From contig ML241294.1 in the NCBI GenBank assembly GCA_005239175.1, forward strand, positions 569,275 through 633,274: a stretch of DNA of 64,000 bases. Reading direction: 5' to 3'. The notes beneath the pieces are model-generated. The model ran no database searches. It was given only the letters and a program-made list of their open reading frames with translations, and was not told the origin of the DNA. The stretch comes from a halophilic archaeon SHRA6. GTDB lineage: Archaea; Halobacteriota; Halobacteria; Halobacteriales; Haloferacaceae. Shown piece by piece: positions 7,081 to 11,477 of the stretch. Made by a program: the position numbers and the translations under genes. Numbering within the stretch: position 1 is the first letter of the stretch; each line of letters opens with the position of its first letter.

Positions 7081-7425
7081 ATGTTTGAACGCTTCTCAAG
7101 CGGCTACTACCTCGGGGAACTGTACGTCGAACCGCACGACGGCGATCGTGCGGTCATCCAGCGCGCGGATCACGAACACATGAACGAGCAGCTCTATGCA
7201 TCAGGATCAGGCATTGAGCGACTCGACGCCCCACTCGTGATGAAACTCGACGGCACACACTTCCCCGTTCACGGCGACGACGACGTTCCGACCGGGACGC
7301 TCGCGGTTCCAGAAACGTTCGGCGACGACAGCCTGCCGAACCGCCGAGAAGTGTTGCTGGCGGAGGGCACCCGGGCGATGGAGCTGTTGCGGTATTCCGG
7401 ATGGCGCTCGGTCAGCGGGACGTGA
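7081..7425 (+). CDS. DUF5802-like haloarchaeal protein
   Basis: A 114-residue conserved haloarchaeal protein of unknown function (MFERFSSGYYLGELYVEP...). It has no signal peptide or membrane helix and contains a proline/acidic middle (HGDDDVPTGTLAVPE). The upstream stretch at about 7021-7060 has a TATA-like tatataag and a short inverted repeat (aagcgtttt / aacgctt). I recognise the family by its overall sequence; the exact DUF number is from memory. Confidence 0.75.
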   Translation: MFERFSSGYYLGELYVEPHDGDRAVIQRADHEHMNEQLYASGSGIERLDAPLVMKLDGTHFPVHGDDDVPTGTLAVPETFGDDSLPNRREVLLAEGTRAMELLRYSGWRSVSGT

Positions 7426-7574: not shown

Positions 7575-8477
7575 ATGCTCGACGAGTTGCTCGGCCGGGC
7601 CGAACTGAAAGCCGAAATCGAGACGCTCTCAGAGGAGAACCGACACCTCGAGCGGCGTCTCGAGGCCGAACAGGAGCGTCGGGCCGACGCGGTGAGCGAT
7701 AAACAGGACGCCGAGGAGACGATCAACCGCCTCGAGGATCGGCTCACCGCCCTCGAAGACAAGCTCGATCGACTCGAATCCGACGAGTCCGAGACAGCCT
7801 ACGAGTTCACCACTCGAACGTCCGTACACGGCGAACAGCTCGTCGAGTTCCTCTCGCGGCTTCGATCACTGCAAACGGGCCCGGAAGGAGCGTTGACCGT
7901 GACGATCGACGAGGGCCGATCGCTTCCAGAATCGGCGACGGCCGCTTTCGAGCCGAGAACCCCACTGCTGCGGCGAGCGGCACCCGGAGTTGCGTACGCC
8001 GACGACATGGGGCTCGTGACAGTGGTTGTTCGGCCGCCGATACAGCCCGAGTCGGTCGACCAGTGGGCCGACAGTTTTCTTGCTCCAGCGGAGTGGTTCC
8101 GGCCAACCGGGCGGTTTGCGTTCGGTGTCGTCAGATCCGACGTGTTTGCACTCGGGGTCTATGAGGGATCCGAGCAGCAGTCAGTGACCGGCTTCGAAAG
8201 CGACGTGAAGTCAGATCACTCGAAGGGCGGCTTCTCACAGGGTCGCTTCGAGCGGATTCGCGACGAGCAGATCGCCGATCACCTCGATGCGGTTCGGGAG
8301 GAACTCGCCGACGTCGAGCGCGTCGATCGGACGATTCTCGTCGGCGAGCAAACCGTGTTGGACACCCTCGAAGACGCGGTCGACCACACTGAGGCGGTCA
8401 ACGCCCGCGGATCCCCTCGTGACGCACTCGAGTCGGCGTTCAGGGACTTTTGGACGACACGACTCTACGTGATTTGA
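7575..8477 (+). CDS. Vms1/Ankzf1-like (VLRF1) release factor, predicted peptidyl-tRNA hydrolase
   Basis: A 300-residue protein. Residues about 10-70 form a charged coiled coil. The rest is an eRF1-like (VLRF1) domain with the signature GGFSQGRFERIRDEQ at 218-232, corresponding to the catalytic GGxS...RF loop of Vms1/Ankzf1. Those proteins release nascent chains from tRNA on stalled 60S or 50S subunits in ribosome-associated quality control. In the eukaryotic loop a Gln follows the GG; here it is F, with a Gln two positions later. A stalled-ribosome rescue role is inferred. No RqcH-like gene is present in the window. Confidence 0.8.
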   Translation: MLDELLGRAELKAEIETLSEENRHLERRLEAEQERRADAVSDKQDAEETINRLEDRLTALEDKLDRLESDESETAYEFTTRTSVHGEQLVEFLSRLRSLQTGPEGALTVTIDEGRSLPESATAAFEPRTPLLRRAAPGVAYADDMGLVTVVVRPPIQPESVDQWADSFLAPAEWFRPTGRFAFGVVRSDVFALGVYEGSEQQSVTGFESDVKSDHSKGGFSQGRFERIRDEQIADHLDAVREELADVERVDRTILVGEQTVLDTLEDAVDHTEAVNARGSPRDALESAFRDFWTTRLYVI

Positions 8478-8520: not shown

Positions 8521-8937
8521 TCAGGACCGATCGACCGTGACCGGAACCGGCGAGCGACGGACAACTGTCTCTGCGACACTGCCGAGGAGAATCCGTGCGG
8601 CACCGTCGCGGCCGTGGCTTCCCATGACGATCGCGTCGATATTGTTCTCGGCGGCCTCTGCGTAGGCGACGATCTCGCGGGCAGGATTCCCGGTCGTGGT
8701 CGCGGTCTCGATGGTGGTGTCCTCGAGTCGATCGCGAACCTCTTCGAAAAGATCGTCTGCGTCGCTTTGATCAACGTCATCAAGAGTTGTTCCCAAACCA
8801 TCAGGGGGTGACACGTTCGGGGGACCGAGCACGTGAAGTAACACAAGGGTCGCATCGGGATACAGTTCGACCGCATATTCGGCCGCTGCCTTCGAGTGTG
8901 GCGATCCATCGACTGGAACGAGCACGCGCGTGGTCAT
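8521..8937 (-). CDS. Universal stress protein (UspA family)
   Basis: A 138-residue single Usp domain. The N-terminus TRVLVPVDGSPHSKAAAEYA and the C-terminal ATP-loop motif IVMGSHGRDGAARILLGSVA (G-2x-G-9x-G-S/T) are intact, so it probably binds ATP. It is convergent with the Vms1-like gene. General stress role; no specific partner is visible. Confidence 0.95.
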   Translation of the reverse strand: MTTRVLVPVDGSPHSKAAAEYAVELYPDATLVLLHVLGPPNVSPPDGLGTTLDDVDQSDADDLFEEVRDRLEDTTIETATTTGNPAREIVAYAEAAENNIDAIVMGSHGRDGAARILLGSVAETVVRRSPVPVTVDRS

Positions 8938-9044
8938 ATACCGCTGTTTTCACGGTCGGACACAAAACGATGTCCGTTGGCAAGCCGTCGTGAGTCACGC
9001 GCCCGATCGGAGTGCTTTCGCCGTCGGGGACGAAACGATTGGGT

Positions 9045-9296
9045 ATGGCCGAAACGAACGTCGAGGTCACCTGTCTGGACTGTGCGTTCCAAGAGTCACA
9101 TGCGGCACTCGGACGCGCACGGGTCGCACTTGCTGCGCACGCCTCTGAGACGGGCCACGACGTGGACTGGACAATCAATCGTGTCGCGCCCGGCGTCGAG
9201 CGGGCCGGATCGGACGCTGGCGTCTGCGGGATCGACGGCTGCGAAAACCAGGATTCGCCGCTTTTGGACTGGCGCAAAACAGCCGACGAATCCTGA
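9045..9296 (+). CDS. Small haloarchaeal Cys/His-rich protein, possible zinc finger
   Basis: An 83-residue protein with CLDCAFQESH near the N-terminus, an AAHASETGHDVDW segment and a second Cys pair CGIDGCEN near the C-terminus. These six or so Cys/His residues could hold one zinc ion, but the spacing matches no finger I can name. The preferred start is the ATG at 9045; an in-frame ATG at 9012 gives a less likely N-terminus. Function unknown. Confidence 0.65.
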   Translation: MAETNVEVTCLDCAFQESHAALGRARVALAAHASETGHDVDWTINRVAPGVERAGSDAGVCGIDGCENQDSPLLDWRKTADES

Positions 9297-9396
9297 GCGG
9301 TGCGGTACCACAGGCGCAACAGACCATCTCCTGTGGTCGACAGCCCCGCGTCGACGCTCCGCCTCATTTAACCCGATCGGCGTTCTGCGAGCAGGT

Positions 9397-10440
9397 ATGA
9401 ATTCCTCGACCAACGACGGACGCCGTCTCGCGATTCTTGCTCACGAAAAATTCCCCGAGCGAGCCAAAACGGCCCTCGGCATGATGCGATACGCCGACGA
9501 CGAGATCGTCGCAGTGCTCGATCGCACAAAGGCTGGTACGCGGGTTACCGATCATGTACCCGACATCTGCGACGCGCCGATCGTCGACAGCTTCGAGGCC
9601 ATTGAGGAACCGGTCGACGCGTTACTGATCGGGATCTCACCGATCGGAGGGGACTTCAAAAAGAGCTGGCGTCCCGACGTGTGTGCGGCGATCGAGGCTG
9701 GCTGCGATGTGATCGCCGGACTCCACTACTTTCTCAACGACGACGAGGAGTTCGCGGCACTCGCGGCTGAACACGGAGTCGACCTGATTGACGTCCGCAA
9801 GCCGAAAGACGACCTCACCGTCGCAAAAGGAATCGCTGACGAGGTCGATGCCCACGTCGCGCTCACGGTCGGGACTGACTGTTCGGTCGGCAAGATGACT
9901 GTCGCGCTCGAAACAGTGCGTGCGGCGCAGGCGGCAGGCATCGACGCCGCGTTGATCCCGACCGGCCAGACCGGAATCATGATCGAAGGCTGGGGGAACC
10001 CGATCGATCGAGTTATCTCAGATTTCACCGCCGGTGCAGTCGAGGAGATGATCCTCGAAGTCGGCGACGACCACGACCTCCTTGTCGTCGAAGGACAGGG
10101 AACGATCGTCCACCCGGCCTACTCGGGGGTGACCTGTGGGATTCTCCACGGCTCAATGGCTGACTCACTCGTTCTCTGTCACATCGCTGGCCTCGAAGCG
10201 ATCCACGGCTACGAGGACGTCACGCTCCCACCGATCGACACCTACGTCGACCTGTACGAATCGCTCGCGGAACCGCTATTCGAGACGAGCGTGGTCGCGG
10301 GTGCGCTCAACACGCGATCGATCGAGACAGATGCTGAAGCCGAAGCGGCGATCGGTGCCTTCGCTAGTGACCTCGGCGTGCCCGCAACTGATCCCGTCCG
10401 CTTCGACGCCGACGCGATTGTGGAGGCGATCACCGAATGA
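9397..10440 (+). CDS. dgcN: DUF1611 family protein, DgcN-type N-acetyl-D-glutamate synthase
   Basis: A 347-residue DUF1611 protein with an N-terminal Rossmann-like domain and a C-terminal P-loop domain (VGTDCSVGKMT at 158-168). DgcN has been described as acetylating D-glutamate to N-acetyl-D-glutamate. DgcA, an enolase-superfamily racemase, then yields the L-form for catabolism. The next gene is exactly such a racemase, overlapping by ATGA, which supports the assignment. Many DUF1611 members remain uncharacterised, so the substrate is inferred from context. Confidence 0.82.
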   Translation: MNSSTNDGRRLAILAHEKFPERAKTALGMMRYADDEIVAVLDRTKAGTRVTDHVPDICDAPIVDSFEAIEEPVDALLIGISPIGGDFKKSWRPDVCAAIEAGCDVIAGLHYFLNDDEEFAALAAEHGVDLIDVRKPKDDLTVAKGIADEVDAHVALTVGTDCSVGKMTVALETVRAAQAAGIDAALIPTGQTGIMIEGWGNPIDRVISDFTAGAVEEMILEVGDDHDLLVVEGQGTIVHPAYSGVTCGILHGSMADSLVLCHIAGLEAIHGYEDVTLPPIDTYVDLYESLAEPLFETSVVAGALNTRSIETDAEAEAAIGAFASDLGVPATDPVRFDADAIVEAITE

Positions 10441-11477
10441 CGCTCGAAACCAGCTTTGAGCAGGTCTCGCTGCCGCTCGCGGACCCGTTTACGATCGCGC
10501 GCGGGACCCAAACCCACGCGGAAAACGTGATCGTCCGGATCACCGACGACGCCGGGATGACCGGAATCGGCGGGGCGGCCCCATCGCCACATTACGGTGA
10601 GACCGCCGCAACTGTCGAAGCGGTCCTCCCGGAGCTTTTGACCGTCGTCGAAGCGATCGACGACCCCCACGCGTTCGAAGAGATTGAGCGACGGCTGCGA
10701 TCGAGGATCTCCGGCAACCCCGCCGCACGGAGTGCGGTCTCGATTGCGATCCACGATCTGGCTGCAAAGCGACTCGGCGTGCCGCTGTATCGGCTCTGGG
10801 GGCTCGATCCGTCCCAAACGCCGAATACGTCGTTCACGATCGGACTTGCTGAGACTGACGTCGTCCGTCAAAAGACCGCGGCGGCGGTTGAATCAGGCTA
10901 TGAGATCCTCAAGCTCAAACTCGGAACCGATCGTGACGAGGAACTCATCGAAGCAGTCCGCGAGGAGGCACCTGAGGCGAGGATCCGCGTCGACGCTAAC
11001 GAGGCGTGGACGCCACGAGAGACGATCGAAAACAGCCGAATGCTCGAAGAGTACGGCGTTGAGTTCATCGAACAGCCCGTGCCCGCTGAGAACCCCGATG
11101 GGCTGCGGTTCGCCTACCAACGCTCTGCGTTGCCAATCGCCGCCGACGAGTCCTGTGTCACGCTCGAAGACATCCCACAAATCGCCGATCGAGCAGACAT
11201 TGTAAACCTGAAGCTCATGAAGTGCGGTGGCCTCTATGAAGCCCAGCGGATGATTCACACCGCCCGAGCCCACGGACTCGACGTAATGCTCGGGTGTATG
11301 ATCGAATCGAACGCTTCGATTGCCGCAGCCTGTCATCTCGGGCCGCTTTTGGATTACGCAGACCTCGATGGCTCGTTGTTGCTCGAAGAAGACGACTACG
11401 CGGGCGTGTCGCTATCGAACGGTCAAATCGATCTTGCAGGACTCGATCGGTCGGGAACCGGCGCGATCGGTCGGTGA
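10437..11477 (+). CDS. dgcA: Enolase-superfamily racemase, DgcA / dipeptide epimerase family
   Basis: A 346-residue muconate-lactonising-subgroup enzyme. Residues visible: K159-x-K161 (KLKLGT), metal ligands D186 (RVDANEAW), E212 (FIEQP) and D237 (AADES), and the second catalytic lysine near 262 (NLKLMKCGG). The family includes L-Ala-D/L-Glu epimerases and N-acetyl-D-Glu racemase DgcA. Its translational coupling with the DUF1611 gene favours the latter. The pair would convert D-glutamate through its N-acetyl form. Confidence 0.88.
   Translation: MTLETSFEQVSLPLADPFTIARGTQTHAENVIVRITDDAGMTGIGGAAPSPHYGETAATVEAVLPELLTVVEAIDDPHAFEEIERRLRSRISGNPAARSAVSIAIHDLAAKRLGVPLYRLWGLDPSQTPNTSFTIGLAETDVVRQKTAAAVESGYEILKLKLGTDRDEELIEAVREEAPEARIRVDANEAWTPRETIENSRMLEEYGVEFIEQPVPAENPDGLRFAYQRSALPIAADESCVTLEDIPQIADRADIVNLKLMKCGGLYEAQRMIHTARAHGLDVMLGCMIESNASIAAACHLGPLLDYADLDGSLLLEEDDYAGVSLSNGQIDLAGLDRSGTGAIGR

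Follow-up and report, generated by a model that had tools for sequence, protein, structure and literature searches.

In a 64 000-nucleotide stretch of DNA from the halophilic archaeon SHRA6 (contig ML241294.1; called the window below), a preliminary description made from the sequence alone had placed an archaeal Vms1-like factor with a coiled-coil N-terminus and an altered catalytic loop. The question raised by this locus is whether the loop and the fused coiled coil set the protein apart from its relatives, and at what step of translation such a protein could act. We found that the window gene is the orthologue, in a haloarchaeon, of aVLRF-1 (archaeal Vms1-like release factor) and an unremarkable member of its family, which was already described in 2019 (Burroughs and Aravind, PMC6514570) with the loop and the coiled coil as its normal traits. 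By analogy with its relatives, the protein probably cuts unfinished proteins from tRNA on stalled ribosomes.

Family assignment and domain architecture

The open reading frame is complete and open, begins with ATG and codes for 300 amino acids. The gene is present in a single copy in its own haloarchaeal genome of 3.36 Mb. Judging from protein identities of 89% to the closest named relative, Halalkalirubrum salinum of the same genus, and of 38–63% to other haloarchaea, this is a conserved gene rather than a chance ORF. The following features were assigned:

7575..8477, plus strand: aVLRF-1 gene, 300 aa, archaeal Vms1-like release factor (Pfam acVLRF1, AlphaFold2, Foldseek)
7578..7790, plus strand: N-terminal coiled coil, residues 2-72, opening with the conserved M[LI]DxLLGR (AlphaFold2 helix; heptad periodicity)
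7812..8069, plus strand: alpha/beta domain, residues 80-165, at the position of the aeRF-1 stop-codon-binding domain, with no NIKS (model E80-84 to E162-165; Foldseek; PMC6514570)
8106..8474, plus strand: RNase H-fold release-factor (RF, peptidyl hydrolase) domain, residues 178-300 (Pfam acVLRF1 180-297; eRF1 domain 2 alignment)
8217..8261, plus strand: catalytic loop and start of the arginine helix, H215-SKGGFSQGRFERIR-229 (30-homologue alignment; AlphaFold2)

The Pfam family acVLRF1 (PF18859) matched residues 180–297 with E = 6.4e-31 (107.7 bits against a cut-off of 27.1), with eRF1_2 (25.3 bits) and baeRF_family10 (baeRF10, 26.7 bits) both just below their Pfam cut-offs. The NCBIfam model of acVLRF-1 (NF041024) scored 31 against a cut-off of 125, and TIGR03676, serving as a test for aRF1, scored 26.5 against 234.7. 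Domain 2 of archaeal and human eRF1 could be aligned to the RNase H-fold RF domain. Pfam gave no match in the protein to eRF1_3, the Pelota C-terminal domain, and the chain stops after the RNase H fold; the stop-codon motif NIKS is absent from the sequence. Neither a Rei1-type zinc finger nor ankyrin repeats were matched by Pfam, the RF domain and the coiled coil being all that was seen. As aRF1 is encoded by a separate gene of the same genome, the aVLRF-1 protein is not the main termination factor.

The AlphaFold2 model of the full chain, made with an alignment of 30 sequences, had pLDDT 89 and was laid out as a single helix (residues 2–72), an alpha/beta domain (80–165) and an RNase H fold (178–300); a model without the coiled coil, made with a different alignment (36 rows), reached pLDDT 92.9 and pTM 0.87. 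Hydrophobicity power along the N-terminal helix peaked at period 3.5 (64.7; 33 at 3.6, 17 at 3.4). The heptad signal exceeded that of shuffled sequences at p<0.05 in 97% of 30 homologues. The motif M[LI]DxLLGR was kept across 80 loci. The coiled coil noticed in the preliminary description is thus genuine and heptad-patterned; its fusion, presented there as unusual, turned out to be a published trait of aVLRF-1 (PMC6514570).

In Foldseek searches against PDB the first ranks were taken by eRF1 and aRF1 (E about 1e-8), the RF domain aligning across the loop and the helix, with Balon and Pelota ranking lower (E about 4e-6 to 1e-5 and about 1.7e-5, respectively). The RF domain alone was superposed on archaeal aRF1 (8hku) with rmsd of 3.6 A over 126 columns. 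Matches to eRF1 spanned at least 250 columns, and the alpha/beta domain 80–165 lies where an N-domain would be expected, but global TM was low and rmsd high; the low global TM-scores to Foldseek matches (about 0.2–0.4 on the query) probably come from differing relative placement of the domains. Structures of Vms1/ANKZF1 (6r84, 6r87 and 5whg) were matched too, yeast Vms1 on the 60S subunit (6r84) with E = 3.6e-4 for the full model and 1.3e-3 for the trimmed one. The GxxQ loop and the RF-type RNase H fold are shared with Vms1, but the match is weak overall (TM 0.36–0.38, identity 7–9%). When PDB was searched at the sequence level with the family profile, eRF1/aRF1 were reached and Vms1 was not; Vms1 came up only in the comparison of folds.

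Set against known systems, the window protein showed no difference of substance from aVLRF-1 (PMC6514570), with which it shares the long N-terminal coiled coil, the RNase H-fold RF domain, GGxSQ and the lack of a Pelota C-domain. The family architecture also includes an N-domain of the stop-codon-binding type, and the conserved arginines that follow the loop are represented here by the invariant R224, R227 and R229 (PMC6514570). The actinobacterial/chloroflexi acVLRF-1 (PF18859, NF041024) has GGxSQ and the RF domain in common with the window protein but, unlike it, lacks the N-domain and the coiled coil (PMC6514570). Vms1/ANKZF1 (eVLRF-1), which was derived from bVLRF-1 and not from aVLRF-1 (PMC6514570), is distant in sequence and structure, and its zinc finger and ankyrin repeats have no Pfam match here. 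The aRF1/eRF1 proteins, best matched in structure, carry GGQ, NIKS and the Pelota C-domain, whereas the window protein has GGFSQ and neither of the other two. The preliminary naming as a Vms1-like archaeal factor was correct, in that the Pfam match, motif and architecture place the protein in the VLRF-1 clade.

The catalytic loop

The loop had been read as GGFSQGRF, with F at the position of the catalytic Gln and Q two residues on. Taken literally this is true, and the numbering of Q222 was right as well: GGFSQGRF covers residues 218–225, GGFSQ (218–222) corresponds to window positions 8226–8240 and the Q222 codon to 8238–8240. A gapless alignment to archaeal aRF1 (GGQSQRR) places F220 at the glutamine of GGQ and Q222 at the second Q. 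In the AlphaFold2 model the loop lies ahead of the long helix 222–245 and is among the least ordered parts, as is to be expected because RF loops are mobile.

From the literal alignment to the GGQ of eRF1 one could argue for a new catalytic variant of Vms1, with a displaced glutamine and an active site departing from that of its relatives. The conservation that we observed speaks strongly against this. Residues H215, K217, G218, G219, S221, Q222, R224, F225, R227 and R229 were invariant in all 30 aligned homologues, in which residue 220 was F or Y, nearly always F. The pattern HSKGG[F/Y]SQxRFER was present in 79 of 80 further named haloarchaeal loci, and more distant relatives in the phylum, those of the Methanosarcina type among them, carry HxKGG[F/W/M/Y]SQxRF. 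Such a loop is therefore the family norm and not an altered one, GGxSQ having been published for aVLRF-1 and acVLRF-1 alike (PMC6514570). Nor does Vms1 provide the contrast of a 'GGQ-like' Gln: the loop of the yeast protein is itself GxxQ (G292-G-S-Q295), not GGQ (PMC5989216), with the same spacing as G219-F-S-Q222 here. Release in vitro is impaired by Q295L, by G292A and by the deletion of S294 that creates GGQ, and that deletion abolishes Vms1 function (PMC5989216). We give hardly any credence to the idea of a new catalytic variant; as a claim of novelty it is already refuted by the family-wide alignments together with PMC6514570, and on the same grounds F220 was dropped as a mark of a new active site. 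By analogy with Vms1, Q222 is the candidate catalytic residue.

The protein could also be a ribosome binder with an RF fold and no catalysis, either a hibernation factor of the Balon type or a splitting factor like Dom34. Balon, a hibernation factor, has the superfamily fold in common with the window protein; both Balon and Pelota were among the Foldseek matches, and the presence of F220 at the eRF1 glutamine position would fit a non-catalytic role. On the other hand, no variation was seen at Q222, S221 or the two glycines in haloarchaea and distant archaea, whereas inactive families lose the glutamine and the conservation of the loop, most baeRF families being without the catalytic Gln (PMC6514570). 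The baeRF10 score was below its cut-off, and the conserved neighbours of aVLRF-1 included no gene that we recognised as coding for a hibernation factor. We consider a non-catalytic binder improbable.

Genomic context and proposed role

The aVLRF-1 gene was present in 57 of 60 relatives; of the three genomes without it, two belong to one family and are small and incomplete, and the third (G039) is near-complete with no match. At least 304 relatives were found in the named genome collection. Among 197 genomes drawn from the phylum, haloarchaea matched strongly and several other families more weakly, often with the coiled coil included, while others matched only through what appears to be aRF1. 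In six genomes (G011, G024, G027, G032, G085 and G240) the aVLRF-1 match was split into two nearby pieces, mostly within one open frame, which suggests inserts between or inside domains in some relatives.

The conserved upstream neighbour is a gene of a domain-of-unknown-function family:

7081..7425, plus strand: DUF5802 gene, upstream neighbour (Pfam PF19118, E=1.8e-48)

In 58 of 80 loci it directly precedes aVLRF-1, in the same orientation and with a median gap of about 108 bp; among the genomes sampled from the phylum, DUF5802 was seen in haloarchaea alone. A scan for promoters of sigma-70 type gave nothing, the model being one that does not apply to archaea. In six Methanosarcina-type loci (L150, L151, L152, L153, L155 and L156) aVLRF-1 is followed on the same strand by a gene that reads, by eye rather than by family search, as an FtsJ/RlmE-like 23S rRNA methyltransferase.

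At positions 8896–11477 the window holds adjoining DgcN-like (DUF1611) and DgcA-like genes, both below NCBIfam cut-offs; the pair is named for D-glutamate use in bacteria. In a synteny comparison over 31 loci, 20 had a DgcN-like and 18 a DgcA-like gene downstream in the orientation of aVLRF-1. In the window, however, they are separated from aVLRF-1 by a minus-strand universal stress gene, and for this reason we do not claim an operon or a functional link.

Known components of ribosome quality control are encoded elsewhere in the same genome:

L147:3090-7460 (G000:C4 about 129.6-134 kb), one strand: RqcH, DUF4013 protein and Pelota (family searches)

Here RqcH (NF041120, 846 bits) is followed by the DUF4013 gene and then by pelota; RqcH followed by Pelota within 8 kb was observed in 45 of 59 relatives with both positions listed. 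RqcH (NFACT_N) was present in 60 of 60 relatives and RqcH_arch scored above cut-off in 195 of 197 phylum genomes; Pelota was matched in all 60 relatives, above cut-off in 58. An operon of aVLRF-1 with RqcH or Pelota was not found. VLRF1 is not an obligate partner of RqcH, since almost every phylum genome has RqcH whereas VLRF1 has a patchy distribution. A link of aVLRF-1 to ribosome quality control is one that we infer, as the gene lies apart from RqcH and Pelota, beside DUF5802.

We consider it likely that the aVLRF-1 orthologue cuts nascent chains off tRNA without reading a stop codon, which would be a last step after Pelota and RqcH. The analysis showed the fold, the invariant Gln loop, the arginine helix, the coiled coil and the lack of NIKS and a Pelota domain, and also that RqcH and Pelota are encoded in the same genomes; that the protein hydrolyses peptidyl-tRNA and serves in quality control we infer by analogy. 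As in eRF1 and Vms1, the protein would enter the A site of a large subunit carrying peptidyl-tRNA (in a split 50S or a stalled 70S), and the mobile loop would reach the peptidyl-transferase centre. There Q222 would position a water molecule for hydrolysis of the peptidyl-tRNA ester, so that the nascent chain would be freed with no need for stop-codon recognition. With less support, the acidic coiled coil would probably be a ribosome dock or a dimer contact, and aVLRF-1 may complete, on the split 50S, what Pelota-driven splitting and RqcH action begin. Against the last-step role count the lack of an operon link, the patchy presence of VLRF1 against near-universal RqcH, and the lack of experiments: in the literature searched we found biochemical data for no archaeal VLRF-1 member. 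A fuller version is conceivable, and we put it forward tentatively: Pelota would split the ribosome, RqcH would tail the nascent chain and aVLRF-1 would release it, as the terminal peptidyl-tRNA hydrolase of a complete archaeal quality-control pathway; the factor would have been recruited independently of the eukaryotic Vms1 line and would dock by its coiled coil.

The same lack of an operon link and the same patchiness would suit a standalone rescue release factor, hydrolysing peptidyl-tRNA on stalled 70S ribosomes under stress and independently of RqcH and Pelota. Archaeal VLRF-1 proteins have indeed been termed standalone, with a specialised, single-component use suggested (PMC6514570), and a putatively retained N-domain could reach the small subunit. 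However, the nearest relative of known function, Vms1, acts in ribosome quality control on the 60S subunit (PMC5989216), and RqcH and Pelota are always found in the same genomes; we regard a standalone rescue factor as rather unlikely. The preferred role, in finishing archaeal quality control, is directly testable, because genetic work is feasible in haloarchaea and aVLRF-1 occurs there alongside RqcH and Pelota.

A similar loop in DUF460/COG2433 proteins

The PF18859 search of the own genome also matched a second, 668-aa protein, a lead that may be worth more than the aVLRF-1 gene itself:

L148:970-2976 (G000:C1 about 920969-922975): DUF460/COG2433 protein (PF18859 own-genome search)

Proteins of this kind (also at loci L162-L191) carry, phylum-wide, a near-invariant RSxG[K/R]GGW[S/R]Q followed by a basic helix. 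This loop sits in the N-terminal region, which precedes the RuvC-like DUF460 domain. In COG2433 no domain other than the RNase H-like one was detected by a survey of 2014, in which further domains were nonetheless suspected from the length of the protein (PMC3985635). From sequence comparison, the N-terminal region is possibly an undescribed release-factor-like region. Such regions matched acVLRF1 weakly in 20 of 23 cases (E<=0.1; best 3.6e-7), and a profile–profile comparison with aVLRF-1 gave 48% probability, centred on the loop. The copy from the own genome, when trimmed, passed the Pfam acVLRF1 cut-off.
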